A DNA stretch of 64,000 nucleotides from Spirochaeta africana DSM 8902 (lineage in GTDB: Bacteria > Spirochaetota > Spirochaetia > DSM-27196 > DSM-8902): positions 992,001 to 1,056,000 of the forward strand of contig NC_017098.1 in the NCBI RefSeq assembly GCF_000242595.2, in the 5' to 3' direction. The notes under the pieces are model-generated. The model was not told the origin of the DNA. It made no database searches and saw nothing but the letters and a program-made list of their open reading frames with translations. The translations under genes and the position numbers were made by a program. Positions 3,168 through 21,754 of this stretch are shown here, piece after piece (position 1 is the stretch's first letter; each line of letters begins with the position of its first letter).

Positions 3168-3860
3168 GTGAGCGACAATTGGACTGAAGAAGAACTGCGA
3201 GCATCTGTTGATGCCTATGTGGAGATGCATCGGCTTGAGGCCGCCGGTCAGCCGTTTACAAAAAAAGCGTACTACGAAGATCTGGCTGATAGATTTGGGC
3301 GTACCGTGAAGTCGTATGAGTATCGCATGCAGAATATTTCTTATGTCTATTCTCTACAAGGTCGCCAGTGGGTTTCTGGATTAAAGCCAGCTAGGAATGT
3401 TGGAAGTAATGTTATCCAACACCTTGAGCGGCTGATAGCTGCCAGCGAAGGGCAGAAGCTCGGCTCAAACACGGATTTTGATGCGACCGTTGAGAAGCTA
3501 AGGAGAAAACCACCTGCATCACTGCCAAAAGGAAAGAAAAAACCAAAATCAGTTCAGGCTGCAGTGACCCAATATGTCAGAGATGCTGAGGTAGTTGCAT
3601 GGGTCCTAGCCCAAGCGTCTGGCCATTGCGAATGCTGTGAAGCTCCTGCGCCATTCGTTCGAGAGGATGGCTCGCCTTTCCTGGAGGTTCATCACGTCCA
3701 GCGCTTGGCAGATGGTGGTGAGGATACCATAAATAATGCAGTAGCTCTTTGCCCGAACTGCCACCGTGAGTTTCACTTCGGCGCTAACAAGCGAGAATTG
3801 GCAAGGAAAGTTCGCGCAAAAATCCCCCGGCTTCAAGCGGCGAGTGAAGTGAATGTATAA
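3168..3860 (+). CDS. HNH endonuclease, McrA-like
   Basis: A 230-residue protein starting at GTG, with GAGG 6-10 bases upstream. The N-terminal half is helical and Lys-rich, likely DNA-binding. The C-terminal half is an HNH module: CECC zinc pair, then EVHHVQRLADGG, N-N-AVALCPNCHREFHFG, giving the ββα-metal His/Asn/His set and the second CxxC. HNH proteins of this type cut DNA, often modified DNA as in McrA. The gene is framed like an integron cassette: GTTATAC at 3146-3152 precedes it closely, and its TAA stop lies inside GTATAAC at 3855-3861. Directly downstream is the IS21 element. Confidence 0.78.
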   Translation: MSDNWTEEELRASVDAYVEMHRLEAAGQPFTKKAYYEDLADRFGRTVKSYEYRMQNISYVYSLQGRQWVSGLKPARNVGSNVIQHLERLIAASEGQKLGSNTDFDATVEKLRRKPPASLPKGKKKPKSVQAAVTQYVRDAEVVAWVLAQASGHCECCEAPAPFVREDGSPFLEVHHVQRLADGGEDTINNAVALCPNCHREFHFGANKRELARKVRAKIPRLQAASEVNV

Positions 3861-4023: not shown

Positions 4024-5310
4024 ATGTGTCGAAAGGAAGATCGGATGCACACTGCTCGCATCTTGAAAGGGCTTGGGCACACCCAAGCTGAAATCGCAGA
4101 CGCCCTTGGCGTCAGCACCCGTATGGTGCGAAATTACCTCACAAAAGAGGTTGGAACAACCCCCAGGAAATCACGGGTCAGCAAGCTTGCTGATTTTTGT
4201 GACATGATTGAGGAGCGATTAGACGAAAACCTGTATTGCAATCTTGTGCCGCTGTTTGAACGTATGGTCACCGCCGGATTCACCGGCCAGATGACCATTC
4301 TGCGAGACTATGTGCGGACTCGGCGAAAGGTGTTGGCAGCACGCGCTATATGGAGATTCGAGACTGAACCCGGTCAACAGGCTCAGGTTGACTGGAAAGA
4401 GTGTGGCACCTGGCAGATCGACGGGCGAGAGCAAAAGCTCTACGCTTTTGTCATGCTCCTGGGATACAGCCGGAAACCGTTTGTGCTGTTCACCACCGAT
4501 ATGACTCTGCCAACACTATTACAGGCACATCTGCTGGCCTTTGCCTGGTTTGGCGCAGTGCCCTGCGAGATACTGTACGACAACATGAAGACCGCCTGGA
4601 TAAATCAATCGGGTGTCTGGACAGTGAACAGCCAGCTGTTGGCATTGGCATCATCCTGCGGCTTTGTCCCCAAACGCTGTCAGATTCGCCGCCCGCAAAC
4701 GAAGGGCAAAGTTGAACGATTCATCGGGTATCTGGCCAATAACTTTTTGACCCGTCCGCATGTTACCGACAGCAACAGTATCGCACAGCTGAACGCTTAT
4801 GTTTTCCGGTGGCTCATCGATGTTGATGAAAAGCAGATTGGTGGCGTCAGGAAGACACGCCGGGAACGCTTTGCCGAAGAGAAGCCTTATATGCATTCCT
4901 GGGTACCTGAGGCAGCACCAGACGTCCGCTTGACCAAAGATCTGGTGATATCGCGGGAGGGGACTATACGATTCCAAACCAATCGATACAGCGTGGATGC
5001 ACAGTATATCGGGCAAATTGTTACTCTCAAGGCAAATACAATTACCCGAAAAATGGAAATATGGCATGAGGGCAACTGCATTCGAACCTGTCTGCTGCAT
5101 CCAAAGGGTGCCTGCATAGATGATATTCGGAAAGAAGATACAGCAGCATTGATCGGTCGCTGGAAACGAGAAAACCAGCGCAGTGCGCCGGAGACACAGA
5201 AAACAGTCAAACTGCCAAATCCACCTGAACATGTTGTTGCCGGGTATGGGATCGATGTGGAAGTGCGACACCCCTCCGTGTTCGACAGTTTGATGCAGGA
5301 GAGCGCATGA
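4024..5310 (+). CDS. istA: IS21-family transposase IstA
   Basis: A 428-residue transposase. A helix-turn-helix near residues 14-39 (QAEIADALGVSTRMVRNYL) is followed by an RNase-H-fold DDE core: first Asp in QVDWKECGTW, second in EILYDNMKTAW, Glu in KGKVERFIGYL. It overlaps istB by ATGA (5307-5310), as in IS21 elements. The start may instead be ATG 4045, which has AAAGGA just upstream. The reading frame is intact. It acts with IstB to move the element. Confidence 0.92.
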   Translation: MCRKEDRMHTARILKGLGHTQAEIADALGVSTRMVRNYLTKEVGTTPRKSRVSKLADFCDMIEERLDENLYCNLVPLFERMVTAGFTGQMTILRDYVRTRRKVLAARAIWRFETEPGQQAQVDWKECGTWQIDGREQKLYAFVMLLGYSRKPFVLFTTDMTLPTLLQAHLLAFAWFGAVPCEILYDNMKTAWINQSGVWTVNSQLLALASSCGFVPKRCQIRRPQTKGKVERFIGYLANNFLTRPHVTDSNSIAQLNAYVFRWLIDVDEKQIGGVRKTRRERFAEEKPYMHSWVPEAAPDVRLTKDLVISREGTIRFQTNRYSVDAQYIGQIVTLKANTITRKMEIWHEGNCIRTCLLHPKGACIDDIRKEDTAALIGRWKRENQRSAPETQKTVKLPNPPEHVVAGYGIDVEVRHPSVFDSLMQESA

Positions 5311-6071
5311 ACCAGCTCACATCAACACTGGAAGCCCGCATGCAGGATATGGGACTTGAGTTCATGGCAGCAGGGCTGGAAAGCTATCTGGAGGCTCAGG
5401 CCCGAACTGAAAACACCTTGTCGCAGTCGATCGCCGATTTACTGGATATCGAATACATACCCCGACGAGAGCGCGCGGCAAGAAGCAGACTGAAGCTCTC
5501 CGGAATGCCGGCAATAAAACGCCTGGAGGACTTTGACCTTGACTGGATCAAGGGTGGACTTACGGCGAAGCAGTTGAACGAACTGGCAAGCCTTGCCTTT
5601 GTTCCGAGGCACGAGAACGTTATCCTCATGGGCCCCAGCGGTCTGGGTAAAACTCACCTGATGCTGGCGCTGGCCTACAAGGCCTGCATGACTGAATACA
5701 CCGTGTGGTACACCAGTTGTATCAACCTGATTGAGGAGCTGGGCAAAGCCCGTGAACAGGGGCGTTTGCGCAGGAGGTTAACCTGGTTGCGAAAGCCGCA
5801 TGTTATTCTCATCGACGAGGTTGGTTATGAGAGCATGACCAGAGAACAGGCAAACCTGTTCTTCCAGGTTGTAAATGCTCGTTACGAACATGGCAGCATC
5901 ATCCTGACCACAAACAAGGGATTCGGCAGATGGGCAGACATCCTGGGCGACGAAGCAACAGCTACCGCAACCCTGGATCGCTTGTTACACCACTCTCACG
6001 TATTCAGTCTCAAAGGGGATTCATACCGGATGAAAGACCGGTTGAAAGTCGGGGTCGTTGACCCTGTGTAA
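5307..6071 (+). CDS. istB: IS21-family helper ATPase IstB
   Basis: A 254-residue AAA+ ATPase with Walker A GPSGLGKTHL near residue 110, Walker B VILIDEVGY, and the sensor segment IILTTNKGFGRWADILGD. IstB helps IstA with target DNA and strand transfer. Length and order after istA are standard for IS21. Its stop is about 60 bases before the interrupted right terminus of the element. Intact, so the element kept both proteins even though its right end is now split by the IS256 insertion. Confidence 0.92.
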   Translation: MNQLTSTLEARMQDMGLEFMAAGLESYLEAQARTENTLSQSIADLLDIEYIPRRERAARSRLKLSGMPAIKRLEDFDLDWIKGGLTAKQLNELASLAFVPRHENVILMGPSGLGKTHLMLALAYKACMTEYTVWYTSCINLIEELGKAREQGRLRRRLTWLRKPHVILIDEVGYESMTREQANLFFQVVNARYEHGSIILTTNKGFGRWADILGDEATATATLDRLLHHSHVFSLKGDSYRMKDRLKVGVVDPV

Positions 6072-6131
6072 ATCAAGAAAAAGCGGAAATCTGAAACCGC
6101 TGAAAAGCGGAACTTTTAAACCGTTGTTGAC

Positions 6132-7480
6132 GATAGTGTCCTGAAACGTTCGCAATTTGAAAAGTAAAAGGAGCCATTGGATCCTCCGAAAGGTGTAGTA
6201 GCCAAACCATACCAAAGGAGAACACACAATGGCCCCACTCAAAGCTACCGCAGATTTCGAGAAACTTCTATCCCGTTTCATAGGTGAACAGGATCCTCTG
6301 CTTGAAATGCTCAAATGGATGACCGAACAGCTCATGCGCATTGAAGCTGAAAATAAAGCCGGTGCCGTGAAAGGCAAGCATGTCGCAAATCGGACGACTC
6401 ATTTCAGCGGTTCTCGTGTCAGAAGATTCGATACCCGTCTGGGCACCATGTACCTCGTCGTTCCAAAGCTGCGCAAGGGCGGGTACATTCCCTTCTTTGT
6501 AACCGAGAAGAAACGCTCGGAACAAGCACTCCTACAGGTAGTGCAGGAAGCATTTATCAACGGTGTTTCTACCCGTAAGATCGATCGCCTCGCCAAGGAG
6601 CTGGGGATTGAATCCATATCAGCCAGCCAGGTCTCTGAAATTAATAAGGGGCTGGATGAACAGGTTCAGCAATTTCGCAACCGAGAGCTGGATTCAGAAT
6701 ATCCAGTTATCTGGATTGATGCACTGTATGAAAAGATACGCCATGGCCAGAGAGTGCAGAATGAAGCAGTGATGGTGGTTTGTGGCCTTAATTCTGCTGG
6801 AGAGCGCGAAATACTTGCTATAGAGCCCATGGAAACTGAATCAGAGGAAACATACGCCGACCTGTTTCAGCGCTTAAAACAGCGCGGTCTCAAGCATGTA
6901 TGGCTTGTGGTATCAGATGCACACCAGGGATTGAAAAATGCAATCCGATCAGAATTTGTCGGCGCATGTTGGCAACGGTGTAAAGTGCATTTCATGCGGA
7001 ATGTCCTCGCCAAAGTACGCAGCAAACACAAGGAACAATTTGCAGAGCGATTAAAGCACATCTGGCTGCAGCCAGATCAAGCTACCGCGCGAAAATACGC
7101 CAAGCAGCTTATGGATGACTGGGAAGACTCTTGCTCTGATGCAGTCGAAATCCTGGATTCCGGACTTGATGACTCACTGCAGTTCTATGCCTTTGCAAAA
7201 ATCGATGCACGGAAAATCTCGTCCACCAATATGCTGGAGCGATTGAACAAGGAAATCCGTCGACGATCAAAGGTGGTTGGCGTCTTTCCGTCCAGGGAGT
7301 CATACATCAGAATGGTCACCTGCTATCTGATAGAATACACCGAAGACTGGACAACCGGCAGATCGTACATTAAAAAGGAATCACTGGATGAACAGAAAGA
7401 ATTCATCCTGAGAACGGTTGCGTAACCAGCCGGAGGCTGATGGCTCCAGGGTGAAATTGCAAACACGTTTGGACACTATC
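6132..7480 (+). mobile_element. IS256-family element nested in the IS21 terminus
   Basis: A 1,349-bp element with inverted ends: GATAGTGTCC at 6132 and its complement ending at 7480, both followed inward by a conserved TTTGCAATTT-like block. It is flanked by an exact 8-bp duplication, TTGTTGAC, at 6124-6131 and 7481-7488. That octamer is the last 8 bases but one of the IS21 right terminus, so this insertion is younger than the IS21 insertion. One transposase gene, 6229-7425, is carried. Confidence 0.93.
6229..7425 (+). CDS. IS256-family (Mutator-type) transposase
   Basis: A 398-residue transposase with the IS256 DDE set: Asp in VIWIDALYEK, Asp in LVVSDAHQGLK, Glu in NMLERLNKEIRRR, plus the usual CWQRCKVHFMRN segment between the last two. 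The ATG follows AAAGGAG. The protein is full length. It is clearly different in sequence from the second IS256 transposase at 19195-20376, so two IS256 subtypes are present. A 77-bp remnant related to the right end of this subtype lies at 12213-12289. Confidence 0.95.
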   Translation: MAPLKATADFEKLLSRFIGEQDPLLEMLKWMTEQLMRIEAENKAGAVKGKHVANRTTHFSGSRVRRFDTRLGTMYLVVPKLRKGGYIPFFVTEKKRSEQALLQVVQEAFINGVSTRKIDRLAKELGIESISASQVSEINKGLDEQVQQFRNRELDSEYPVIWIDALYEKIRHGQRVQNEAVMVVCGLNSAGEREILAIEPMETESEETYADLFQRLKQRGLKHVWLVVSDAHQGLKNAIRSEFVGACWQRCKVHFMRNVLAKVRSKHKEQFAERLKHIWLQPDQATARKYAKQLMDDWEDSCSDAVEILDSGLDDSLQFYAFAKIDARKISSTNMLERLNKEIRRRSKVVGVFPSRESYIRMVTCYLIEYTEDWTTGRSYIKKESLDEQKEFILRTVA

Positions 7481-7489
7481 TTGTTGACA

Positions 7490-7783
7490 CCCCATGGCCT
7501 CCAGTACTTCCTTTACTTCGCTATCCCGGTACTCATGTTTCATAATGTCATTCAATTTAAAATAGTACTTTGTGCGCACATAGTCTATAATTTCCAGAAG
7601 AGCCAACGACCGAGCCAGTGCTAAGTTATCGCCTGTACCAAAAGCGGGATGATTACATAATATCTGGGCAAACAGGGCAGGAGGGTGAAACTACCTAATA
7701 GAGATAAGTTCCAAGATTATAGGATGAGCTGTTGGTCCCAACACTTTGATGAGAAGGGGCAAGTGAGAAATAAGTAACTTCAT
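7490..7783 (-). pseudogene. Broken fifth gene of the leftward operon, cut by IS21
   Basis: On the minus strand an ATG at 7783 overlaps the stop of the DUF3883 gene (ATGA, 7780-7783) and is preceded by GGAGG with suitable spacing. The frame reads MKLLISHLPLLIKVLG, meets an in-frame TAG after 30 codons, and then continues open (FHPPALFAQIL...NHPAFGTGDNLALARS...EVLEAMG) until the IS21 end at 7489. This looks like the downstream gene of the operon, disabled by a nonsense codon and by loss of its 3' part. I do not recognise the family. The alternative is two unrelated short frames. Confidence 0.45.
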
Positions 7784-8541
7784 GGTAAACCTCCATGCAG
7801 CAAAAAAGTATCAACAAGTATCTTGCAATTTTGCCAATTTGCTGATGGATCCACATCTCTTGGAAGTCTTGATTCAATTTGGTAGCAATATAAGTGTCCC
7901 AATATTTGTTTAGTTCCATTATCTATTGAGACGAAAACAATACACCAATCACGATTTCGTCTTCCCACCTCAAATTCGTTCCTTGATAAAAAGAATTGAA
8001 TGTCTTGATCTCTATTTCTTGTGCTTGTCTTTACTTCTATTTTAACATTTTTTTCAATATTGTTAACTGAGGGTGAATATATATCATAACCAGCATAATC
8101 ATTTACATCTGCAACGTGGATTATTTTGCTATGCATTTCTGATGGCAATTTACTTTTAATTGAATAAATAACAAATTTCTCACCAGAATCACCAATTGAT
8201 TTTAAGATTTCTTGATCGAATTTTTTGCACTCATCACATGGACCATCAACTATTTCAACCATATCCCATGCATCTCTATATCCATTTTGAAGAGCGCTTT
8301 GAATCCATATGATTCCATCAGTACTCCCAATAGACAATCGCCCATCATAAATAAGTATTACACCATAGACAATGAGCTGGTTTAATACATCCAATACATA
8401 AGTGTAAGAATGGCCGATAATAAGCGGTTTCATTTTTGCTTTAATTTTAAAATCAGCAATGTGAATATTATTTCGAGCGTCTATTAAAATTTTTTTTGCA
8501 ACCTCAAACCAATTATGAGGAGGATACACTGAATTATTCAT
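7780..8541 (-). CDS. DUF3883 (NOV-C-like) nuclease-fold protein
   Basis: A 253-residue protein. The C-terminal half has the DUF3883 layout: NDYAGYDIYS with Asp153, then VKIEVKTST with Glu169 and Lys171, then FFLSRNEFEVG. The D...ExK spacing suits the PD-(D/E)XK fold, so nuclease activity is possible (inference). The N-terminal half has a helical, winged-helix-like segment and a CDEC pair at 102-105. Its start overlaps the SNF2 helicase stop by 8 bases, and its stop overlaps the start of the broken gene downstream, so it belongs to the leftward four/five-gene operon. Base composition is strongly AT-rich. Confidence 0.7.
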   Translation of the reverse strand: MNNSVYPPHNWFEVAKKILIDARNNIHIADFKIKAKMKPLIIGHSYTYVLDVLNQLIVYGVILIYDGRLSIGSTDGIIWIQSALQNGYRDAWDMVEIVDGPCDECKKFDQEILKSIGDSGEKFVIYSIKSKLPSEMHSKIIHVADVNDYAGYDIYSPSVNNIEKNVKIEVKTSTRNRDQDIQFFLSRNEFEVGRRNRDWCIVFVSIDNGTKQILGHLYCYQIESRLPRDVDPSANWQNCKILVDTFLLHGGLP

Positions 8542-10348
8542 AAGATTTTAAATGAGAAAAGAGATCGTCTAAATCAAATTGATCAATTCCCAATATTTCA
8601 TCTGGATAAACTTCATTTTCGTCAGGCAGACTATTTTTGACTAAACCTTCATCATTTAAAGCCTGCGCAAGCTGATCTATTTTATACTCTATTCTTGGAG
8701 CAATTCTTTGGTCTATAGAAAATTTGGATATAAGTAAATGAATATTTGTTTTTTGATTTTTGTGCAATCCTAGTCGATGTATTCGGTCTAACGATTGGAG
8801 GTACTGCCCAGCGTTGTATGATCTGTCTAAAAATATAGCATCGTGGCATTCCTTGTGCAAACTGACACCTTCTCCTAGTGTTTGAGGATTACTTATCAGT
8901 ATTGAGCAGCTAGGATCATTTCTAAACTTTTTAATTCCAGAGACTCTATCTTCATTGCTTGTAGAGCCATATATTACAACTGGGTTTAGAGGTTCAAGGA
9001 CTCTACATAATGCTAAGATATTCCCGATTAAATTGCTCCAAACTAATACCTTTCGGTTTTCATTATGCGCTTTTTCGCCAAATTCTCTAATCCATTTATA
9101 TTTAGGAGGCATTTCAATGGAAGCATATCGTTGAACAAGATCCAGCAAACTATCAGATAGTAGAAAGTCCTTCGGTGGCCATTCTAAACCTAAATAAGCA
9201 TCTTCACGCGTAATACCAGCCAAAAGCCCAGGATTGCTTGCCGCAGCTATTAGAGTCATAACTGCTCTGCCTTTTGCACCAAAGTAGGATTCTTCTGATG
9301 GCGATAAAGAAAAAGCCCCACGATAAGATCGACATAATGCTGAATATATTTCGGCTTGTTTTTCTCCCATTTCAACAGGATGTGAAGATATATTTAGTGG
9401 AGGTAGTCCTAATTCATTTTTTGTAGTTCGAACAAAGATGGAACCTCTTTTCATTTTTTTGAATACTGCATCAGATAACTTCGTTTTGGGGACATGTGGC
9501 CACGAAATTGCGAATAGATTTCTAAGATCATCAAAACTCTGAGGCATTGGTGTTCCAGATAGGAGGTCAACCCTTTTAACATGACTCGATATTTCTTTAC
9601 ATCTAAGCCATCGAATTGATTTTGCTCCACCTTTAATTCTATGCGCTTCATCAATAACGAGCATAGATGGATTTGATCTAACCCAATTGACTATTCTTAA
9701 GAAGCGTTTATTACTCTCAAGCTTTTCATAATTCAATACCAATATATCGGTGTTATCATTTATGGGCTCATCATTGAATACTGTAATGTTAAACGTATCA
9801 AAAAAAACCTGTTCCGGCTCAGATGTCCATGCTTCAAAAGCAGATTTAGGACAGATTACCAATAGCTTTTCAATATTACTATGCCTTCTTAGAGAATCCC
9901 ATATCACCAAACTGCTTGTAGTCTTGCCTGCTCCTGGAACAGAAAAATTTGCCCCTGACGGAAGCTCCAACAATCTGGTTATGTCTCTTTTTTGGAACAA
10001 TGTTAGTTTTCTAAGTAAATGACTATCATCAAAGTCGCTTTTCTCGATGAGTTCTTGTGATAAATAATTATCAAATAAATCTATGTTGTTGAGCGCTTTT
10101 CTTAATATGTTTTCTGTTGCTTTATCAATTACAACATTGCCGCCATCTTTTATCCAACTACTGCGTAACCATGCTCTCTTATAAATAAAATCTTGTACAG
10201 GAATTTCAACTCGGTCGTTTGTTGCTACTATATTATTCTCCCACCAAAGAACAACAGAAGACCAATGAGTATCGTCTACATTGGCACCTCTAATTAAATG
10301 AATAGTATTATTATCATCTTTATATTTAAGGATAAGTGAATGTTTCAA
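8534..10348 (-). CDS. SNF2-family DEAH helicase/translocase
   Basis: A 604-residue SF2 ATPase. Motif I PGAGKTTSS lies near residue 135, motif II VIDEAHR near 231, motif III LLSGTPMP. The C-terminal RecA-like domain has SCSILISNPQTLGEGVSLH and motif VI QSLDRIHRLG near 520. The ~110-residue N-terminal region is not recognised. SNF2-type proteins translocate on duplex DNA and serve as motors in several restriction and defence systems. It lies 11 bases downstream of the ParB-like gene and overlaps the DUF3883 gene, indicating one operon. AT-rich relative to the window. Confidence 0.85.
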   Translation of the reverse strand: MKHSLILKYKDDNNTIHLIRGANVDDTHWSSVVLWWENNIVATNDRVEIPVQDFIYKRAWLRSSWIKDGGNVVIDKATENILRKALNNIDLFDNYLSQELIEKSDFDDSHLLRKLTLFQKRDITRLLELPSGANFSVPGAGKTTSSLVIWDSLRRHSNIEKLLVICPKSAFEAWTSEPEQVFFDTFNITVFNDEPINDNTDILVLNYEKLESNKRFLRIVNWVRSNPSMLVIDEAHRIKGGAKSIRWLRCKEISSHVKRVDLLSGTPMPQSFDDLRNLFAISWPHVPKTKLSDAVFKKMKRGSIFVRTTKNELGLPPLNISSHPVEMGEKQAEIYSALCRSYRGAFSLSPSEESYFGAKGRAVMTLIAAASNPGLLAGITREDAYLGLEWPPKDFLLSDSLLDLVQRYASIEMPPKYKWIREFGEKAHNENRKVLVWSNLIGNILALCRVLEPLNPVVIYGSTSNEDRVSGIKKFRNDPSCSILISNPQTLGEGVSLHKECHDAIFLDRSYNAGQYLQSLDRIHRLGLHKNQKTNIHLLISKFSIDQRIAPRIEYKIDQLAQALNDEGLVKNSLPDENEVYPDEILGIDQFDLDDLFSHLKSYE

Positions 10349-10359
10349 CTCATGACCTC

Positions 10360-11658
10360 TCAGTCAGCTATAATTTTATGTATATTATCTATCTCATAAG
10401 TAACCTTCTTAAGATCATATATAAAAGTCCCTTTCTTAAAGCCATTAGAATTCACAATTTCTGGTAGTTTTTCTCTTACGCTTTGCAGTTTGGCTCTTAT
10501 GTCTTTTAATATTTCACTGGGTTCTGCTTTAGCGCTTTCATATTTCTGTTCATCAATAATCTTCTCGCTGGCTCTTCTCGCGTTCCAAGAAATTTGACTA
10601 ATCATTCCATTAAGATCTGCAGTAATTTCTCCTGAGTCGTCTCGTTGTGATTTGTCATTCAATATGTCCTTTAAGAAGTTTTTCATGTTGTAAGAATTGG
10701 ATTCTGCTGGCCCCAATAAGTCCCCGTACCCATCATCTACATTATTATCCTTATAGGACTCGATAAACTTGATGGCATTGTTATTGTCCTCACCAGAAAG
10801 GCGCGATACAAGATGGTCGCTTACGAAGTCTTCATCAATGGCTCGAATTTGGTCTTTGTTTAATCCAAGGAAGACCATTGATAATCTAGACCATTTCAAT
10901 TTTTCCGCTGATTCGATATCGCCTTCATTTTTAAGTCTAATATAATCATCGTCTAAGTCTTTTAAATGTTGTTTTTTTGAATCAAATGCTGAGTATGGTA
11001 TAGGTGGTGAGGAAAGACTCCTTACTTCTTCTATATAGTTTAATAACCTCATGTGCAATCTTACTTTTCTCTCACCAGCTCTCACCCAAGCCATTTTTCT
11101 AGCTAATTCTTTTTCACTTCCACCGTTATCGAGAAACCTTTTCATTAGCAATAGTTCATTTGTAAAAGTATAATCCTGATGAACCAAGTCGGTTACTTGA
11201 AGAAGCATTTCAATATCAAGTACATCGGATTCGTTTACATTGTCGGGGAGTACAGCAACTTCAACATACCTCATTCCAAGCATTCTCATTGCTGCAATTC
11301 TTGTGTTGCCGTTAACTACCAAACCTTCTCTTGTGATTAAGCCTGGTTCTCTTTGTCCAAGTGTTTTGAGCTGCTCTTTGAGTTCCTTGAACTTGTCTGT
11401 CTTCGCTAATAGATCCACTAATATTTTCTGTGACTCAGACAATTCAGGGTTCGTTTCTATTTGTTCTCTGTTAGGATAGTCAAGAAGTTGACAAGACAAT
11501 CTGTTGTTTTTATGATTTAAAATTAGCAAATCTGCCTCGACTCTTATTACTGGTAAATATATCTTTTTTCCGCGAAAATCAATTGAATATGTAGCATTAG
11601 ATTTGCTTTTTTCGTACTGGGATAGTTCCCTGGAGATCATTTCTTTTCTTTCTGTCAT
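10360..11658 (-). CDS. ParB/Srx-fold protein
   Basis: A 432-residue protein. The N-terminal half carries a ParB/sulfiredoxin-fold signature, PGLITREGLVVNGNTRIAA, including the GNTR motif that binds nucleotide in ParB-type proteins. The rest is largely helical and charged, with a helix-turn-helix-like stretch (SEKELARKMAWVRAGERKVRLH) as in ParB. No partner ParA is nearby, so chromosome partition is unlikely. The neighbours suggest a DNA- or NTP-sensing part of a restriction-like system (inference). It lies 25 bases after the B3-like gene in a leftward operon and is AT-rich. Confidence 0.7.
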   Translation of the reverse strand: MTERKEMISRELSQYEKSKSNATYSIDFRGKKIYLPVIRVEADLLILNHKNNRLSCQLLDYPNREQIETNPELSESQKILVDLLAKTDKFKELKEQLKTLGQREPGLITREGLVVNGNTRIAAMRMLGMRYVEVAVLPDNVNESDVLDIEMLLQVTDLVHQDYTFTNELLLMKRFLDNGGSEKELARKMAWVRAGERKVRLHMRLLNYIEEVRSLSSPPIPYSAFDSKKQHLKDLDDDYIRLKNEGDIESAEKLKWSRLSMVFLGLNKDQIRAIDEDFVSDHLVSRLSGEDNNNAIKFIESYKDNNVDDGYGDLLGPAESNSYNMKNFLKDILNDKSQRDDSGEITADLNGMISQISWNARRASEKIIDEQKYESAKAEPSEILKDIRAKLQSVREKLPEIVNSNGFKKGTFIYDLKKVTYEIDNIHKIIAD

Positions 11659-11683
11659 GTTTCCCCTTTTTAATAATTAAACG

Positions 11684-12118
11684 CTATTTGTATGAATTGA
11701 AATCAAGTATAAACTCATACCTAGACTTTTTATAAAATTCTACACTTGTTCGACCGTAATTTAACAAATGATTGATTGTAATTAAATCTCCGGGATATAG
11801 ATTTAATCTTTTGCGAAAATATAAACCTAGTTTTGAATTGTCATCTATTGTATGTATGGCTTTTCCATTCGCTTGACGTCTAGCACAATCCCAAATCTCA
11901 CCATCATCTGTGTAAACTTTGAAAATCTCTCCTGCTAATGGGAAAAAGCCAGATTTTTGAATGTGGGCCGGTACAGCGAGATATGCTTGATCTTGATTTC
12001 TTCCCGGGCGTTGTCCCCAATTTAAACCAGACGTATAAGGAACTTGCTCGTTATTGCCTTTTCTTATGGTAAGTGGCAATCTTTCGTAGGGATAGTCTAC
12101 ATACGTCGGTAGAAACAT
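11684..12118 (-). CDS. Stand-alone NgoFVII/BfiI-type B3-like DNA-binding domain
   Basis: A 144-residue protein. SGLNWGQRPGRN, AYLAVP, SGFFP, YTDDGEIW, GKAIHTIDDNSKLGLYFRKR and LLNYGRTSVEFYKK match the C-terminal DNA-recognition domain of NgoFVII-like restriction enzymes, in the order I remember for that family. The PLD-type catalytic half of those enzymes is absent. I placed the start at ATG 12118, with GGAG 5 bases away; the frame extends to 12163. It is the first gene of the leftward operon. Inference: the sequence-specificity subunit, with nuclease supplied by another protein, perhaps DUF3883. Confidence 0.65.
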   Translation of the reverse strand: MFLPTYVDYPYERLPLTIRKGNNEQVPYTSGLNWGQRPGRNQDQAYLAVPAHIQKSGFFPLAGEIFKVYTDDGEIWDCARRQANGKAIHTIDDNSKLGLYFRKRLNLYPGDLITINHLLNYGRTSVEFYKKSRYEFILDFNSYK

Positions 12119-12212
12119 AACAGCTCCATCTATTATGATTAGGTAGTTAGTTAAGTGTATCACAAAAAATTATTGTTTGCTACTTGCTTTTTAATTTCTG
12201 AGCATGTCGACT

Positions 12213-12289
12213 GACAGTGTCCAAACATGTTTGCAATTTAATCCTGGAGCAATCAGCCTCCGGCTGGTTACGAAACCGTTTTCAGGATG
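12213..12289 (-). mobile_element. Remnant of an IS256-family right end
   Basis: Starting GACAGTGTCCAAACATG, these 77 bases match about 90% with the terminal 77 bases of the right end of the IS256 element at 6132-7480, read on the minus strand. They include the last codons of the transposase (ILKTVS-stop versus ILRTVA-stop). The tip faces left, toward the defence operon; everything inward of 12289 is gone. The copy sits between the divergent B3-like and vsr genes and may contribute to their regulation (inference). Confidence 0.85.
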
Positions 12290-12430
12290 CTATTATGTTA
12301 TACTGTTACAGTTGCCCAAACTTGACAAAAGTAATTTCGAAGGTAACATGGAAAGCCTTGAAGATGATTAAATCAGCTTATTTGACTGTTCCTATAAGTC
12401 GGAAATAACAGACAATGCCGGTCATTCTAT

Positions 12431-12856
12431 ATGAGTAAAGATAGAATCGATAAAGATCGCAGAAGTTGGAATATGAGTAGGATTAAATCTAAAGATACTA
12501 CTCCGGAGATGCGAGTGAGAACGATCCTACATCGGTCAGGGTTTCGGTACAGATTGCATGTCAATAAACTTCCCGGGGTTCCGGATATAGTTCTGCCAAG
12601 GTATAATACTGTAGTTTTTGTGAATGGATGCTTCTGGCACAGGCATGCTGACTGTAAGCGCTGTACATTTCCTAATAGCAATGAAGAATATTGGAAAAAA
12701 AAGTTTGATAATACCATGGAGAGAGATCAAAGAAATATTAATGCGTTGCAGGGTCTTGGATGGAACGTTATTATAATTTGGGAGTGCGAAATCGGTGATG
12801 CTTCAGTCATCGATGACATAAAAAGGAAAATCATAAGTGGACAAAATCGTTTATAA
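12431..12856 (+). CDS. vsr: Very-short-patch repair endonuclease Vsr
   Basis: A 141-residue protein with the full Vsr layout: RSWNMSRIKSKDTTPEMRVR at the N-terminus, LPGVPDIVLP with the catalytic Asp, VVFVNGCFWHRHADC with the conserved His and zinc ligands, EYWKKKFDNTMERDQR and GWNVIIIWECEI at the end. Vsr nicks 5' of the T in T-G mismatches left by deamination of 5-methylcytosine. It overlaps the next gene, a C5-cytosine methyltransferase, by 20 bases; such pairs protect the methylated site from mutation. Divergent from the B3/ParB/SNF2/DUF3883 operon. Confidence 0.92.
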   Translation: MSKDRIDKDRRSWNMSRIKSKDTTPEMRVRTILHRSGFRYRLHVNKLPGVPDIVLPRYNTVVFVNGCFWHRHADCKRCTFPNSNEEYWKKKFDNTMERDQRNINALQGLGWNVIIIWECEIGDASVIDDIKRKIISGQNRL

Positions 12857-13985
12857 ATTAGGGGAGTTATTTTGTGGGCCAGGTGGAATCGCAAGAGGTG
12901 CTGAATTAGCTTCATTAGAAACCGATTCCGCCGAATTCTCAATAAAGCATGTATGGGCAACAGATTATCATAAAGATACATGCGCTACCTATCGAGCGAA
13001 CTTTTTCAAAAATTCCGAAGATAGAGTGATTCAAGAAGATATTCGTAAGCTAGATTTCCAAATACTGAAGGATTTATCAGAAATTGATGGGTTAGCATTT
13101 GGCTTTCCGTGTAATGACTTTAGTTTAGTAGGTGAACAAAAGGGAACCGATGGAGAGTATGGCCCCTTGTATACTTATGGCTCCAAAGCATTAGTTGAAT
13201 TTCAACCTAAATGGTTTTTAGCGGAAAATGTTGGTGGATTAGCTAGCTCAAATGAGGGAAAAGCATTTGTTTCTATATTAGATTCATTTAGAAGCTGTGG
13301 TTATAATTTATTTCCACATTTATATAAATTCGAACAATATGGAGTTCCACAAGCAAGGCACAGAATCATAATCATTGGAATTAGGCATGATTTAAATATT
13401 GATTTTAAAATACCTGCGCCTACAAAGGAAATTAAGACTGCCAAACAGGCGTTAGAGAACATACCAGATTGGGCTACAAATCAAGAGCTTACAAAACAAT
13501 CACCACGAGTTGTAGACCGACTGTCATATATTAAGCCGGGTGAAAATGCTTTTACTGCAGATATCCCGGCTCATTTACAATTAAATGTAAAAGGCGCCAA
13601 AATTAGTCAAATATATAAAAAAATTGATCCTGATAAGCCTTCTTATACAGTTACTGGCAGTGGCGGCGGTGGTACACACATGTATCATTGGGAGGAAAAT
13701 CGAGCACTTACAAACAGAGAGCGGGCTCGGCTGCAAACATTTCCTGATTATCATGTATTTGAGGGATCCAAAGAAAGTGTGAGAAGACAAATTGGGATGG
13801 CGGTTCCTGTAGATGGGGTACGTTTAATTTTTGAATCGTTACTAAAATGCTTTGCTGATGTAAGTTATCCTTTTATCCAGCCATCATTTGATGTTTTGAG
13901 ATATGACGACGATCCTTCTGAAATAGAGGTGGTCAAACAAAGGCTAATCCAAGAAGTCAGCGGAAGTGTAAATGAACTGCTTTAG
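12837..13985 (+). CDS. DNA (cytosine-5) methyltransferase
   Basis: A 382-residue protein starting at GTG. All main C5-MTase motifs are in order: I FCGPGGIARG, IV GFPCNDFS with catalytic Cys near 92, VI ENVGG, VIII QARHR, IX ENRALTNRERARLQTFP and X IGMAVPV. Motif I (FCGPGG rather than FxGxGG) and the region before motif IX (SGGGGTHMYHW) suit the Dcm-like branch. It adds a methyl group at C5 in a target set by the region between motifs VIII and IX, which I cannot read. Overlap with vsr and the divergent operon suggest it is the modification arm of a restriction system. Confidence 0.92.
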   Translation: MDKIVYKLGELFCGPGGIARGAELASLETDSAEFSIKHVWATDYHKDTCATYRANFFKNSEDRVIQEDIRKLDFQILKDLSEIDGLAFGFPCNDFSLVGEQKGTDGEYGPLYTYGSKALVEFQPKWFLAENVGGLASSNEGKAFVSILDSFRSCGYNLFPHLYKFEQYGVPQARHRIIIIGIRHDLNIDFKIPAPTKEIKTAKQALENIPDWATNQELTKQSPRVVDRLSYIKPGENAFTADIPAHLQLNVKGAKISQIYKKIDPDKPSYTVTGSGGGGTHMYHWEENRALTNRERARLQTFPDYHVFEGSKESVRRQIGMAVPVDGVRLIFESLLKCFADVSYPFIQPSFDVLRYDDDPSEIEVVKQRLIQEVSGSVNELL

Positions 13986-14002
13986 TTACCTAGGGGGTTT
14001 CA

Positions 14003-15820
14003 GTGACTGTATATCTCGCCAAAATTACAAACGAAGCAAATATTGCTAGAATATTCAGGAAAGAAAAATTTGTACATGATCAAATTTATAATTTTGAGAA
14101 AGATATTAAAATTGGTGACTATATTTTCTTATACTTGGGTGGTGATAAGAAAAAAATAAATTGGCAACAAGGACTTATTGGCTGTGGTAGAATTGTTCGT
14201 GCTCCATACGATAAAGGATACGACAAAAAAAATAATAAATATTTTAAAATTGAAATCCAACCAGAGTATATATTGAATAAGCCCATTGAACCTCGTCAAA
14301 CTAAACTACACCCCAAATTCGCACAGGAATTATATTCTGTGCCTTATGTAGGTGCTAACCACTTTCAAACTCAAGCAATCGCCCAAGCGCAAGATAAAGG
14401 GGCCGAGGCATTATTCCTTCTATTACAGGATGAAAATAGTGATATATTTAAAAATTTAGATTTAGATTTTTTAAAATCATATAAAAATAGAAAATTGAAA
14501 AATGTGGTTTTCTGTTTTTTCCCAAAACCCTTCCTCCTATTAGCCGGTATTTCTGGAACAGGAAAAACACGTTTCGTCCGTGAACAGGCCGAGCTTTCTG
14601 CCGAGAGTTATGGTATAGAACAGGGGACTAACTACTGCCTGGTACCTGTTCGGCCGGACTGGCATGAGCCGTCTGATCTGTTGGGCTATGTGTCCCGCAT
14701 AAACGGTACACGCTATGTAGTGACCGGATTCTTGCGCTTTATGGTGCAGGCTTTACTGGCTGCTGTGGATGAAATCCGCGATGGTAAGCTGGTATATAAA
14801 TCCCCGCAAGAGATTCCCCCATACTGGCTCTGCTTGGACGAGATGAACCTGGCACCAGTAGAGCAGTATTTTGCCGATTACCTTTCTGTTCTGGAGACCC
14901 GCCAGTGGAATGGTAATACCTACACGAGCGATGCAATGATGAATGCTTCTTTACTGCAGCAGCTGCAATCAGAAAATCTTAAAGACAGAGAGCAAACCGC
15001 TTTTGATATTCTTATACAGGATCTATTGGGCGATGGGGATTCCAGTTCCATGAACGAATTTAAGGAAGGCTTTCGTGAGTATGTGCTGGAAAACGGTATT
15101 CCTCTGCCCCCTAATTTAATAGTGGCGGGCACAGTCAACATGGATGAAACTACCCATGGGTTTTCCCGTAAGGTGATTGACCGTGCCTTTACCATTGATT
15201 TCCAGGAGTTCTTTCCCAACGATTTTGCCACATTCTTCCAGCCTGAGGCTCTGCCAATAGGACTCTCGTTTTCAACCGTTACACAGATTGGCAGCATATC
15301 AGATTTACAACATGTTCCAGCTGATCCGGACGGAGCTCAATCAATCGCCTTTCTTACACGCATAAATGAGGTGTTAAAAAACACCCCATTTGAACTTGCC
15401 TACCGAGCATTAAATGAACTGCTGCTTTCCCTGCATTGTTTTTCGCCTGCGACTACAGAAGAACTGTGTGCAGTGTGGGATGATTTTCTTATGCAAAAAG
15501 TGCTGCCTCGTATAGAGGGAGACAGTCAGAAGCTTGTAAGTATATCGGTGCATAGCGAGCCGTTTGCTGGAGAAGATCAGAAGAAATACGGGAAAGGTTC
15601 CATATTGCACGCGTTGTATTCTGAGCTTCGGAACGAGACCATGTTAGGACCTATCTGGCCAGCATCATCAGAAGATGTAGAAATAGACGAAACGCGCCCC
15701 GACTTGCTTCGCCGAGGAGTAGACGGACAGCCTTTGAAGGTCGGCTGCCGCAGCAGAAAAAAACTAGAATGGATGATGCAGCGATTAAAGGCCAATCATT
15801 TCACTGACTTCTGGGTATAG
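14003..15820 (+). CDS. EVE-domain McrB-like AAA+ GTPase
   Basis: A 605-residue protein starting at GTG after a GGGGG tract. Residues 1-~125 resemble an EVE/PUA-like modified-base-binding domain (MTVYLAKITNEANI, KIGDYIFLY, GLIGCGRIV). From ~175 it is McrB-like: Walker A AGISGTGKTRF near 181-191, DWHEPSDLLGY, Walker B PYWLCLDEMNLAPVEQYF near 274 and VNMDETTHGFSRKVIDRAF. McrB drives DNA translocation and the partner McrC cuts. The McrC-like gene follows after 3 bases. The first ~170 codons are AT-rich like the upstream genes while the rest has the GC content of the host, suggesting a junction. Confidence 0.85.
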   Translation: MTVYLAKITNEANIARIFRKEKFVHDQIYNFEKDIKIGDYIFLYLGGDKKKINWQQGLIGCGRIVRAPYDKGYDKKNNKYFKIEIQPEYILNKPIEPRQTKLHPKFAQELYSVPYVGANHFQTQAIAQAQDKGAEALFLLLQDENSDIFKNLDLDFLKSYKNRKLKNVVFCFFPKPFLLLAGISGTGKTRFVREQAELSAESYGIEQGTNYCLVPVRPDWHEPSDLLGYVSRINGTRYVVTGFLRFMVQALLAAVDEIRDGKLVYKSPQEIPPYWLCLDEMNLAPVEQYFADYLSVLETRQWNGNTYTSDAMMNASLLQQLQSENLKDREQTAFDILIQDLLGDGDSSSMNEFKEGFREYVLENGIPLPPNLIVAGTVNMDETTHGFSRKVIDRAFTIDFQEFFPNDFATFFQPEALPIGLSFSTVTQIGSISDLQHVPADPDGAQSIAFLTRINEVLKNTPFELAYRALNELLLSLHCFSPATTEELCAVWDDFLMQKVLPRIEGDSQKLVSISVHSEPFAGEDQKKYGKGSILHALYSELRNETMLGPIWPASSEDVEIDETRPDLLRRGVDGQPLKVGCRSRKKLEWMMQRLKANHFTDFWV

Positions 15821-15823
15821 TTC

Positions 15824-18028
15824 ATGAGTAATGTGGTGCTCCGGTGTGGACCAATTACGGTGCACAGCAGCAAGGCAGCAGAGCGGTATACGGCTGCTAA
15901 GACTGCCTTGTTTGGGAATGACGAAGCTTCCAAGCTGCATACTGCCCGTTACAGCTTCCGAGGTATACACGCAAATAAACTAGAATTATTTGAGGATACT
16001 CCGGTTGAGTTAACTCAACCAGATGAGCCAGCGGGGGCGTATTCTGCGCATGAATTAAAGCCTGTGTTCTTTGATCAGACCCCCTATATGTTCAGTGTTG
16101 CATTACCCGAAGCGGAGAATGCTTATTTGTTTACGCCCCTGGCTGATCTGGCTGACAGCGCTGTCTGGGAACCTGATTTAAAGCGCCTGCAAGTGCCGCT
16201 GAATTTCGGCAATGATTTGGGTGAATTCCATCTGTGTTGGGAGTGGATTACTTCCGACGGCAGTCGTCATAATGGCGAATTTATTGCCCAGGTGTATTCG
16301 ACCAAGTTGGACATTCATTCGCATTTTCAGACCATGCTGGAAGATGTGCAAAAATCCTTTGATTGGATACGACTTGATCTACTGCGGCGCACATCCTGGG
16401 GCTGGGAGCATGATGATTCTGCCAGCGCCGATGTGCAGACCTGGCTGGCAGTGTTTCAGCAAGTGCGGGCGGATATGGAAGAGCGCCTTTGGAAGCTGGT
16501 CAAACAGCATCGCCGCCGTCTGGTCCCCGAGCAGTACACCATTCGACCTGAGCGTATTCGATGCATGCGACCCCGTCAGGAAGAGCGGGTTTTCGCAGGA
16601 ATGCAAGACAACCCTTCTAAACGCTACCGAATTGAGCGCAAGGTTCTGGATGCCGACACACCCGAAAATCGTTACATGAAGTATATTTTGAGCCACAGCC
16701 TCAAGACCCTGCGTCATGTATGTGATGTGCTGGAGCCTATGCCGCGTGTATCAGCAGTATTTAAACAGCGTTTGCAGGAATGGGATCGTGATTGGAGTGT
16801 GCTGCAGCAGCACCGTTTTTGGCGCGGTATTGGTCCCTTCCGGGGCCTCCGTAAGGAATCCCTCGTACTCTCGCAAGACCCCCTCTATGCCGGCATCCGT
16901 CGATCCTGGTTTTTGCTCCAATACGGCATGCAGCTTTTGGAACGTGATTTGCGAGGCGGTATACAAAATGTCGCACAATTATATGAAGTCTGGTGTTTAG
17001 TGCAGCTGGACGAGATAGTGAAGAGAGCAGGTTGGGTCCGCGATTCTCACGATACGCGAATTAATCTGGGACCGGATGAGCTGCCGCTCTTTTCCAGTAT
17101 CGACGAGATTTCAAGCGGGACACATGTGCTGGAATACTATCCGGAAGGACAAAATAGCGAAGATTATATTGCTAAATTATCCTTGCTGTTTCAGCCTCGA
17201 ATTGACGACAAGCCGCGGAATACGTACTGGCCAGGCGCAATGTCGGTGCCGGTTACCCAACAACCGGATATAGTACTCCGGTTGGAGCGGTCTGATCTCG
17301 CCGGTTGTCCTGTGTACACCTGGATATTCGATGCAAAATATCGCCTGTCAGATCGCCAAGACGCTCCTGACGATGCGGTGAATCAGCTCCATCGGTATCG
17401 AGACGCAATACTCTGGAGCAATCCAGGTATACAGTCCGTTAGCATAAGCCGTGAAAGCATTGGCGGATATGTCTTGTACCCCGGGACAGAGCAGGCAAAT
17501 CCACAACGCAGTGCGCAGCTTGCCTCCATAGCCACGAGTAATATAGGTGCGTATCCACTACGGCCAAATTGTTCGCAAGAATTACTTGCGCAATCAATCC
17601 GCGGGCGGTTGCAGATGTATACCGGTCAGCCAGATCAGTGGGCTGGCCGTCCAGAGAATCTACCGAGTCAGCGCCAATCGAAGTCAATTGTTTCGGCCAG
17701 GTTGTTAATTGACCTGGATCAGGTAGGCGGCAATCCTCCAGAAAATCCTTATGTCTTTATCCCGCTGCAAAAATTGGTTGTAGGGGAATATCAGCCGGCA
17801 AGCTGGGACTTTGTTTCGTTTGCTGACAGCGATACCTGTTTTCGAGTCGTTCAAAGCATCCAAGTACCCTTTGATACAGCACAGGCATTATGCCAGCAAG
17901 CTCGGCAAAAGTTTCCGCCATCGCTATCTCAAGCATCCGGAGGAGATATACTAACCCTTGTGTTAGCTGCGGCCGAGAACCAGGGGGCTGAGCAGGGTGG
18001 CGTACAGATCACGGTAGACTGTAATTAG
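15824..18028 (+). CDS. McrC-like DUF2357 restriction subunit
   Basis: A 734-residue protein. The N-terminal ~400 residues are a DUF2357-type region with long helical stretches (ENRYMKYILSHSLKTLRHV). The C-terminal part has a PD-(D/E)XK core: QPDIVLRLE with Asp near 481, then WIFDAKYRL with Asp-x-Lys near 502-505, then a Gln/His-rich helix (DDAVNQLHRYRDAIL) typical of McrC-like nucleases. It likely supplies DNA cleavage for the McrB-like motor upstream. The last ~130 residues after 600 form an extra domain I do not recognise. Confidence 0.82.
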   Translation: MSNVVLRCGPITVHSSKAAERYTAAKTALFGNDEASKLHTARYSFRGIHANKLELFEDTPVELTQPDEPAGAYSAHELKPVFFDQTPYMFSVALPEAENAYLFTPLADLADSAVWEPDLKRLQVPLNFGNDLGEFHLCWEWITSDGSRHNGEFIAQVYSTKLDIHSHFQTMLEDVQKSFDWIRLDLLRRTSWGWEHDDSASADVQTWLAVFQQVRADMEERLWKLVKQHRRRLVPEQYTIRPERIRCMRPRQEERVFAGMQDNPSKRYRIERKVLDADTPENRYMKYILSHSLKTLRHVCDVLEPMPRVSAVFKQRLQEWDRDWSVLQQHRFWRGIGPFRGLRKESLVLSQDPLYAGIRRSWFLLQYGMQLLERDLRGGIQNVAQLYEVWCLVQLDEIVKRAGWVRDSHDTRINLGPDELPLFSSIDEISSGTHVLEYYPEGQNSEDYIAKLSLLFQPRIDDKPRNTYWPGAMSVPVTQQPDIVLRLERSDLAGCPVYTWIFDAKYRLSDRQDAPDDAVNQLHRYRDAILWSNPGIQSVSISRESIGGYVLYPGTEQANPQRSAQLASIATSNIGAYPLRPNCSQELLAQSIRGRLQMYTGQPDQWAGRPENLPSQRQSKSIVSARLLIDLDQVGGNPPENPYVFIPLQKLVVGEYQPASWDFVSFADSDTCFRVVQSIQVPFDTAQALCQQARQKFPPSLSQASGGDILTLVLAAAENQGAEQGGVQITVDCN

Positions 18029-18054: not shown

Positions 18055-18636
18055 ATGGAATCAACAGTGGATTTTAAAAATGTTTTAAAGGCAATTCAGG
18101 AACAGCAGGTCAAATCATTTTACAGTCTAAATGTATTTAAAGAGTTCCTAGCTACTAAGCGACGCGGTATGTATTGGATTTGGACCAAGCTGTCATGGGA
18201 TGAGTTGGAGCAGATCCAAACAAAAGAGCTCACGAAAGAAGTCCCAATTGCAGAATTAGTGCGGATGAGGCAGAAACTAAACAATATTTGCACTATAAAA
18301 AATGGTGATTATCGTATTGTCTACAACGGGATTGGCGGTTACAGAACCGAGTCTAAAAGTTTTGGGCTGCGTGAGCGAATCAATCAAGAACTGAACTGTA
18401 ATAATGAGCGAACCGGTACTTTGAATATAAAGAATAGGAATCCTGAAACGGTTAGCTGTGATGCTCGGCAATGGGAAAGCCAGTGGGCTGTTTCCTTTTT
18501 TGACTTTGACGAACAAGGGAGCGCTGATATATTAGCTTCCCATGGCTTCGGTACGGATTCTTATAACCAATACGCACATGATTTAGAACTGTCATGGCGG
18601 ATTGAGTTTGGCGTTCCAATTCTGAATCGGATATAA
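18055..18636 (+). CDS. Conserved accessory protein, possibly GIY-YIG-like
   Basis: A 193-residue protein following AAGGAG. It has GMYWIWTKLSWDEL near 38-51, then YRIVYNGIGGYRTESKSFG and LRERINQEL, an order reminiscent of GIY-YIG nucleases (tyrosine strand, YNGIG strand, Arg helix). Conserved-looking blocks ERTGTLNIKNRN, WAVSFFDFD and ELSWRIEFGVPIL follow. I recall similar proteins near defence genes but no firm function. It is 26 bases after the McrC-like gene, so it is probably co-transcribed and may be an accessory nuclease or sensor of that system (inference). Confidence 0.5.
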   Translation: MESTVDFKNVLKAIQEQQVKSFYSLNVFKEFLATKRRGMYWIWTKLSWDELEQIQTKELTKEVPIAELVRMRQKLNNICTIKNGDYRIVYNGIGGYRTESKSFGLRERINQELNCNNERTGTLNIKNRNPETVSCDARQWESQWAVSFFDFDEQGSADILASHGFGTDSYNQYAHDLELSWRIEFGVPILNRI

Positions 18637-20480: not shown

Positions 20481-21754
20481 CAGCTGGGCCGTGGCCTGCG
20501 CCTGGCTCACGGCAAGGACTGTTTGACGGTGCTGGACTTTGTCGGTAACGCCCGGCCAGAGTACGATTTCTCGCAGAAGTTTCGCGCCATGCTCGGCCGC
20601 TCACAGAGATCGGTCACCGATGAGATCGAGCAGAACTTCCCCCATGTCCCCTTGGGCTGCTCAATCGTACTGCAGAAACAGGCCCGCGAGGTCATACTCG
20701 GTAATATCCGTTCGGCCATCGTAAACAGGCAGCGCCTGCTGCAGTGGCTGCGTAATTACCGCCAGCACAGCAGCCGGGAACTGAATCTGCCAAACTTCCT
20801 GCAGCAGTACCCCACTGTTGAACTGGCTGACATCTACCGTAACAGAATCGATACCGGTGGCGGCTGGACGCGCCTGCAGTATGCCGCCGGGCTTATCGCC
20901 GCCGAGCCGGATCCCCGGCTGGAACTGCCGGTCTACCGTGCCGTGCGCAACCGCCTGATACCCTGTAGCTTGGCCTCATACCTGAGCTTTGTGCACGCGG
21001 TCTTTACCCGGACCGAAGTACTCGCGCTGGAAGATGCGCTGAGCCAGCAGCATGCTGCTATGCTCCACTACGACTTCTGGCAGAAACCCGGCCCGGAGCT
21101 GGGCTACGCCTGCCTTTCTGAATCCCTGCAGGCTATGACCGCAGATCCCTTACTGAACCGGGAGGTTATCTCGGTGGTGGAGCTGCTGCTGGATACCATC
21201 GACACCGAGGAGCTGCCGATGCAGCTGCCGTTTCCCAGCGCTATCCGGCTGCATGCCCGCTACAGCCGCGACCAGATCCTGGCGGCATTCGGCGCCCACC
21301 GCTTTGACCAGCAGTCCAGCAGCCGCGAGGGGGTGCTGTTTCTCCCGGAACTGAACTGTGAGCTCTTGTTCCTAACCCTCCAGAAAACCGAGGAGCGCTT
21401 TTCACCCACCACCCTGTACCATGACTACGCCATCAGCGAAGAACTCTTTCACTGGCAGAGCCAGAACTCCGCCCGCCCCGACCGGGGCAAAGGCAGGGAC
21501 TACACCCGCCAGCAGGAACTGGGCCGCAGCATTATCCTGTTCGTGCGCGAGCAGTCCAAAGATCAGCACAACCGCACCATGGGCTTTGTCTGCCTGGGCC
21601 CGGTCAGCTTTGTCAGCACCGAAGGCAGCCAGCCCATGAACATCACCTGGCGCCTGCACACCCCGCTGCCCCCCTGGCTCTGGCATAGTGCCGCCAAGCT
21701 GGCGGTGGGGTAGGAGGTGTGGACAATGCCTGTACAGAGAACTATGCTCTGATT

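Follow-up and report, generated by a model that had tools for sequence, protein, structure and literature searches.

In the restriction–modification (R-M) systems CglI and NgoAVII, the methyltransferases (MTases) M.CglI and M.NgoAVII act on GCSGC, while the restriction proteins R.CglI and R.NgoAVII read GCCGC through a B3 domain and depend for cleavage on a separate ATPase (PMC4267653). Another domain of R-M operons, DUF3883 (NOV_C), is called a novel restriction endonuclease (REase) domain in PMC3710099. The window analysed here, a stretch of 64,000 nucleotides of the Spirochaeta africana DSM 8902 genome (contig NC_017098.1, positions 992,001 to 1,056,000), encodes a B3 domain and a DUF3883 protein in one leftward operon, together with an SNF2-family ATPase and a ParB-like protein, and this operon faces away from the genes of a Vsr endonuclease and a C5 cytosine MTase.

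Layout of the locus and its candidate subunits

The features of the locus, in window coordinates, are as follows.

6132..7480 (+): IS256/Mutator-family insertion sequence (IS); Transposase_mut 3e-107; left border of the leftward operon
7780..8541 (−): DUF3883/NOV_C protein, 253 aa; Pfam PF13020, E = 8e-10; candidate nuclease subunit
8534..10348 (−): SNF2-family SF2 ATPase, 604 aa; Pfam PF00176, 1.5e-14, and PF00271; candidate motor
10360..11658 (−): ParB-like protein, 432 aa; candidate NTP-dependent clamp or regulator
11684..12118 (−; ORF to GTG 12163): stand-alone B3 DNA-recognition domain; Pfam PF20731 (RE_NgoFVII_C), E = 1e-27
12213..12289 (−): inverted 77-nt remnant of the above IS; separates the B3 gene from vsr
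12431..12856 (+): Vsr mismatch endonuclease; Pfam PF03852, 1e-28; TIGR00632 above cut-off
12837..13985 (+): C5 cytosine methyltransferase; PF00145 (DNA_methylase), 1e-72; NgoAVII/CglI clade
14003..15820 (+): EVE domain fused to a McrB-like AAA GTPase; Pfam EVE, 8e-6; PADLOC PDC-M26A, 2e-37
15824..18028 (+): McrC-like DUF2357 with PDDEXK_7 nuclease; Pfam 7e-31 and 4e-21

The open reading frames and their Pfam families confirm the tight leftward operon and the divergent Vsr/C5 MTase pair of a preliminary description of this DNA: the NOV_C and SNF2 genes overlap by 8 bases and the remaining gaps span 11 and 25 bases. The low GC content that it attributed to all these genes is also borne out (35–38% in the leftward operon and the Vsr/MTase genes vs 45–60% in the surroundings). 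The IS256-family copy is bounded by terminal inverted repeats (6132–6158/7454–7480) and the remnant is 91% complementary to positions 7404–7480, so that the leftward operon is flanked on both sides by the same IS, with a full copy on its left and the inverted remnant on its right. On the other strand, the MTase gene is followed by the EVE-McrB-like and McrC-like genes at gaps of 17 and 3 bases. Neither the IS copies nor this pair on the MTase strand figured in the earlier description. The order vsr-C5-AAA-DUF2357 recurs in a Caballeronia plasmid, whose McrBC MTase is only distantly related to that of the window in the C5 MTase tree, and this recurrence shows that an MTase in this position could equally serve the McrBC-like pair. 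The EVE-McrB/McrC genes may constitute a neighbouring second restriction module or an alternative partner of the MTase; one MTase may serve both modules, or two unrelated units may have been joined by the IS copies.

The B3 ORF (11684–12163, minus strand) encodes 144–159 aa and no PLD nuclease domain, and translation probably starts at ATG 12118 (144 aa), just downstream of a GGAG motif. A profile of four B3 sequences finds the B3 domain of the NgoAVII R-protein in the PDB (4rct/4rd5, E = 2e-19), while phmmer with the B3 sequence alone gave no PDB match. This profile match and that to PF20731 (1e-27) uphold the earlier identification of a stand-alone recognition domain of NgoFVII/BfiI type.

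The NOV_C protein combines an N-terminal winged-helix-like region with a C-terminal PD-(D/E)XK-like domain. The D...ExK residues recognized earlier in this protein (D153 and E169-x-K171) are, together with E121, invariant in 42 aligned homologs. Its AlphaFold model (pLDDT 88.9) contains, in succession, the helix that carries E121, a strand following D153, the ExK strand, a helix, and a strand, an order that fits that expected of a PD-(D/E)XK core. A Foldseek search with the whole-chain model returned no significant match, the best nuclease being DpnI (E = 0.37), and a NOV_C profile found nothing useful among PDB sequences. Foldseek also gave only weak matches for the HNH-like protein described below and, thus, the case for both folds relies on motifs and secondary structure. 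In the SNF2 protein, Walker A (GAGKT) and DEAH are intact, the motifs are invariant in 7–9 homologs, and the best PDB matches are SNF2/ISWI structures. The ParB fold proposed for the fourth protein is only partly substantiated: the protein has no match in Pfam and its profile matches Spo0J (1vz0) weakly (E = 0.04), but NCBI annotates its homologs as ParB and these share conserved NGNxR and ExxLQ...DY motifs.

The ParB–SNF2–NOV_C module across genomes

With either ParB or SNF2 as the query, tblastn of plasmids gave one set of six records, belonging to Streptomyces, Kozakia, Azospirillum, Rhizobium, Mesorhizobium, and Paracoccus, and NOV_C lies downstream in all six, with an IS inserted between SNF2 and NOV_C in the Mesorhizobium plasmid. 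A set of 99 loci from several phyla was compiled by scanning GTDB genomes as well as viral contigs with an SNF2 profile and adding the plasmid records. ParB adjoins SNF2 in 98/99 of these loci and NOV_C comes next in 52/99, which substantiates, for these three genes, the co-occurrence that the preliminary description had proposed to look for. As judged from the sequences, ParB–SNF2, with or without NOV_C, is a conserved and recurrent module. No recognised NOV_C is present in the remaining 47/99, so that the nuclease is either a different protein in these loci or not NOV_C at all. NaeI was considered as a substitute (18/47 loci without NOV_C vs 5/52 with it), but it is not counted as evidence because it often lies 5–7 kb away. 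In some Streptomyces loci Vsr is encoded inside the SNF2 operon, where it may be considered as the nuclease.

A C5 MTase is encoded nearby in 71/99 loci and Vsr in 64/99, as against 4/69 and 0/69 in SNF2-like loci without ParB, a rough control drawn from viral contigs with shorter stretches on average (13 vs 19 kb), although the contrast is large nonetheless. Thus, the association with C5 MTase and Vsr that had been read from the single locus extends to the set. In some loci N4/N6 MTases take the place of the C5 enzyme, and a five-gene operon in the order MTase, BglII-like protein, ParB, SNF2, NOV_C is found in Paracoccus, viral contigs, and one Bacillota genome.

Among the 99 loci, a stand-alone B3 accompanies the module in just two, the window and a gammaproteobacterial contig (L011); a B3 search of viral contigs found none, and one of plasmids found only one PLD-B3-type enzyme. 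Therefore, the lone B3 is one of several interchangeable recognition proteins and not the defining part that it had been taken for, and the earlier reading was right in outline while centred on the wrong gene. In L011 the order is ParB-SNF2-NOV_C-B3-(115 aa)-C5 MTase, all in one direction, which ties these five genes together; identity to the window proteins is 55% for B3, 59–60% for the MTase, and 48% for SNF2. A LlaJI-type locus of another genome (G382, locus L199) likewise encodes a B3 domain on its own as well as a NOV_C protein. That the lone B3 arose solely because the IS truncated a PLD-B3 gene was rejected, since L011 and G382 hold lone B3 genes in other settings.

Recognition proteins and their methyltransferases

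The variable part of the locus is the gene beside ParB. Most Actinomycetota have here a protein that joins a winged helix to a zinc-bound HNH-like domain; Alphaproteobacteria and part of the Actinomycetota have a PD-(D/E)XK protein of 280 aa, and the group with N4/N6 MTases has a short BglII/BstYI/BamHI-like one. All these families, B3 included, are kin to type II endonucleases, and each appears to have given up catalysis. When linked to ParB–SNF2, the HNH-like family lacks its catalytic His in 63/63 cases while keeping the four Zn cysteines in 63/63, the PD-(D/E)XK family has changed D to V/I and E to I in 7/7, and the BglII/BstYI/BamHI-like family has changed the catalytic Glu to Gln (ExQ/ExE to QxQ) in 5/5, counts to which common descent contributes and which go back to about four independent events of capture. 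The linked PD-(D/E)XK form still matches a PADLOC type II REase model (3e-19), and its relatives on stand-alone MTase–REase plasmids keep D and E in 4/4. The HNH-like family was also searched in 397 actinobacterial genomes without selecting on ParB–SNF2. Here the proteins of three loci with adjoining ParB–SNF2 (L227, L228, and the sampling centre L042) have lost the His, whereas the closest homologs without ParB–SNF2 (L229, L230, and L231) keep both His and Asn; Vsr is found in all three of the latter loci and a C5 MTase in two. The HNH-like homolog on plasmid pROB02 of Rhodococcus opacus also keeps His and Asn. The dead recognition proteins evolve under purifying selection (dN/dS 0.03–0.23) and, thus, are retained for something other than cutting, for which recognition is the simplest candidate role. 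That type II endonucleases have been inactivated repeatedly beside ParB–SNF2 appears to be new.

The C5 MTase tree, which includes stand-alone R-M relatives, tracks the recognition protein and not the ParB–SNF2 module. The MTases of HNH-like loci form one clade and those of PD-(D/E)XK loci are interspersed among MTases from the stand-alone relatives. In the window, the MTase is sister to that of L011 (support 91/87), and both fall inside the clade of the Neisseria gonorrhoeae MTase (99/99), with 42% identity between the window and Neisseria enzymes; near relatives are also encoded beside AlwI-type or PLD/Z1 nucleases. This placement in the NgoAVII clade suggests that one kind of R-M system gave rise to both the window's MTase and its B3, for which a site of GCNGC type (GCSGC or GCWGC) is probable. 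Moreover, since the MTase varies together with the recognition protein, a methylation-sensitive system is likelier than the methylation-dependent one originally proposed.

Proposed mechanism and comparison with known systems

The preferred reading, to which we give a probability of roughly 0.6, is that of a split, ATP-dependent, methylation-sensitive restriction system with recognition, motor, and nuclease on separate proteins. Such a division into subunits was already suggested for the window, and the independent evidence from the sister loci fits it. The C5 MTase would mark host sites, probably of GCNGC type, and thereby protect the host, while Vsr would repair T:G mismatches from deaminated 5mC and limit C-to-T mutation at methylated sites. 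In a putative physical complex, the lone B3, as specificity subunit, would bind incoming DNA at the unmodified site and pass this site to ParB-like and SNF2, an NTP-driven clamp/translocase, which in turn would activate or deliver the PD-(D/E)XK nuclease DUF3883/NOV_C for ATP-driven cleavage and, presumably, defence. As to origin, ParB–SNF2–NOV_C may have been joined more than once to different type II R-M pairs, whose original endonuclease would then lose catalysis and stay as the recognition subunit; in the window, a PLD-B3 nuclease would have been reduced to its B3 domain. More tentatively, at odds slightly short of even, the module may be a general effector that takes over type II R-M systems, turning the resident endonuclease into a dead specificity subunit and supplying ATP-driven cleavage, possibly with a ParB-type clamp at the site. 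At least four unrelated folds (HNH-like, PD-(D/E)XK, BglII-like, and B3) would have been captured in this way.

Two independent systems could instead meet in the window: vsr-C5-EVE-McrB-McrC would be a complete LlaJI/McrBC-like 5mC system and the B3 operon a separate, IS-borne import with its own MTase or none. The close same-strand spacing of vsr-C5-McrB-McrC (gaps of 17 and 3 bases), the same order in Caballeronia (L176), and the IS256 copy and inverted remnant on either side of the operon speak for this arrangement. However, the window MTase groups with that of the B3-ParB-SNF2-NOV_C locus L011 and with the NgoAVII clade, very distant from the Caballeronia enzyme, C5 MTase and Vsr lie near ParB–SNF2 in most other loci, and a single MTase may serve both modules, which makes two separate systems unlikely, if still worth keeping in mind.

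Proteins of the ParB family are clamps and those of the SNF2 family are remodellers, so that the pair might remodel or silence foreign DNA, with B3 and the dead endonucleases as sequence-specific silencers and NOV_C in a non-catalytic or regulatory role. The 47/99 loci that retain ParB–SNF2 and a recognition protein without NOV_C, as well as the lack of a significant nuclease match to the NOV_C model, are in line with this function. Nevertheless, silencing is improbable given the E, D, and ExK set of NOV_C, invariant in 42 homologs as in PD-(D/E)XK nucleases, the strong MTase association that restriction would predict, and the naming of DUF3883 as a novel REase domain of R-M operons in PMC3710099. 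The dead endonucleases and the lone B3 could also be remains of decaying R-M systems, neighbours that ParB–SNF2–NOV_C does not use. R-M systems often decay and defence islands mix genes, and NaeI genes coexist in some loci. Yet the recognition genes are open frames under purifying selection (dN/dS 0.03–0.23) that adjoin ParB across the locus set, the Zn-binding cysteines are kept in 63/63, and the actinobacterial sample is cleanly split into dead proteins with ParB–SNF2 and intact ones without, all of which renders mere relics the most improbable of these explanations.

If the split restriction system is confirmed, it would show that multi-subunit ATP-dependent restriction enzymes have evolved repeatedly from simple type II ones, the latter being retained as readers, and it would explain why many annotated actinobacterial ‘endonucleases’ are unable to cut. 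It would also provide modular sequence readers for one motor–nuclease, and the defence system so defined, widespread and unnamed, might influence how readily Streptomyces and relatives are transformed.

In accordance with the preliminary description, neither PADLOC 2.0 nor NCBIfam nor the open-access papers searched yielded a described system with this gene set, which may already bear a name elsewhere. DISARM, Dpd, Zorya, and the BREX helicase modules share an SNF2-like helicase, some with an MTase or PLD, but their other signature genes are absent from the operon and its SNF2 falls far below the cut-offs where these exist. Membership of DISARM (DrmD, 37 bits vs a cut-off of 610) and Dpd (DpdE, 39 bits vs 500) was rejected; that DISARM differs in its genes, as previously stated, is also seen in the absence of DrmB and DrmC among the six genes, with DrmA giving only a marginal helicase match. 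The gene set of LlaJI/McrBC type is found in the rightward genes (12837–18028) and not in the leftward operon, which has ParB–SNF2 instead of the McrB GTPase and McrC-like nuclease. The R-M operons of the Ava_2192 context share the SNF2 helicase and the DUF3883 REase domain, but these are fused, with HEPN/DUF499 partners, and the passages of PMC3710099 on them mention neither ParB nor a dead type II REase. In CglI and NgoAVII, B3 is fused to a PLD domain, which is the nuclease, and the N-protein is a DEAD/Z1 ATPase, whereas the window has B3 alone, DUF3883/NOV_C as the nuclease candidate, and SNF2 with a ParB-like partner and no Z1 match. Thus, although the absence of the PLD-B3 fusion and of the DEAD/Z1 ATPase sets it apart from the members of this group, the system of the window would work in the manner of CglI/NgoAVII, and it shares with CglI, NgoAVII, and BceSIV (PMC4267653) a C5 MTase of the same clade, a recognition domain of the same Pfam B3 family, and a separate SF2 ATPase, which is required for cleavage in the characterised systems.

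Genomic surroundings of the leftward operon

The leftward operon, which encodes the lone B3, ParB-like, SNF2 and NOV_C proteins, and the divergent pair of vsr and C5 methyltransferase genes are accompanied in the window by the following features:

6132-7480, IS256-family element, on one side of the leftward operon
12213-12289, 77-nt inverted remnant of the element at 6132-7480, on the other side of the operon
14003-18028, pair of EVE–McrB-like and DUF2357/PDDEXK McrC-like genes, immediately 3' of the C5 methyltransferase gene (PADLOC candidate PDC-M26)

The operon is bracketed by these IS copies, as if it had been moved in or rearranged by them. At 19195-21713, a second IS256-like transposase frame adjoins a C-terminal DUF3427 portion of a helicase-type protein, which appears to have been cut off by this insertion. 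The McrB/McrC-like pair is followed by a gene for a 193-aa protein matching no known family (18055-18636).

To the left of the operon, the genes at 51-2559 and 3168-3860, part of a defence island, encode a Mrr-like fragment, a MazG-like protein, a protein combining GIY-YIG and Schlafen-group-3 helicase domains, and an HNH protein. Farther to the right, at 22962-28215, a PDDEXK_4 nuclease protein and an NYN (Zc3h12a-like) RNase protein flank an unknown 713-aa protein.

ParB–SNF2 loci with other partners

In several Streptomyces loci without NOV_C (L044, L047, L061, L069, L070 and L086), Vsr is encoded 9-45 bases after SNF2 on the same strand, and may be the nuclease of these loci. Another subgroup (L013, L014, L015, L017, L020, L024 and L071) encodes a large N4/N6 methyltransferase-like protein with an RNREVHLPPVSxYRWWARR-type motif and, in several loci, also an unknown protein of 400-600 aa upstream of ParB; these proteins replace the C5 methyltransferase and the small recognition protein. 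A more distant ParB–SNF2 pair lies immediately after a type III mod/res pair on an Enterococcus plasmid (L009, 6437-9560), and dozens of Enterococcus plasmids carry related SNF2 genes.

Lone B3 and NOV_C in other settings

In the closest relative, the gammaproteobacterial contig L011, a small PhaR-like protein (PHB accumulation regulator) is encoded between the lone B3 and C5 methyltransferase genes (4930-5277). The LlaJI-type locus L199 (genome G382, 6071-12490) comprises a truncated C5 methyltransferase frame, a NOV_C protein and a lone B3, together with a McrB-like GTPase and an RE_LlaJI protein; lone B3 and NOV_C are also found with another motor.
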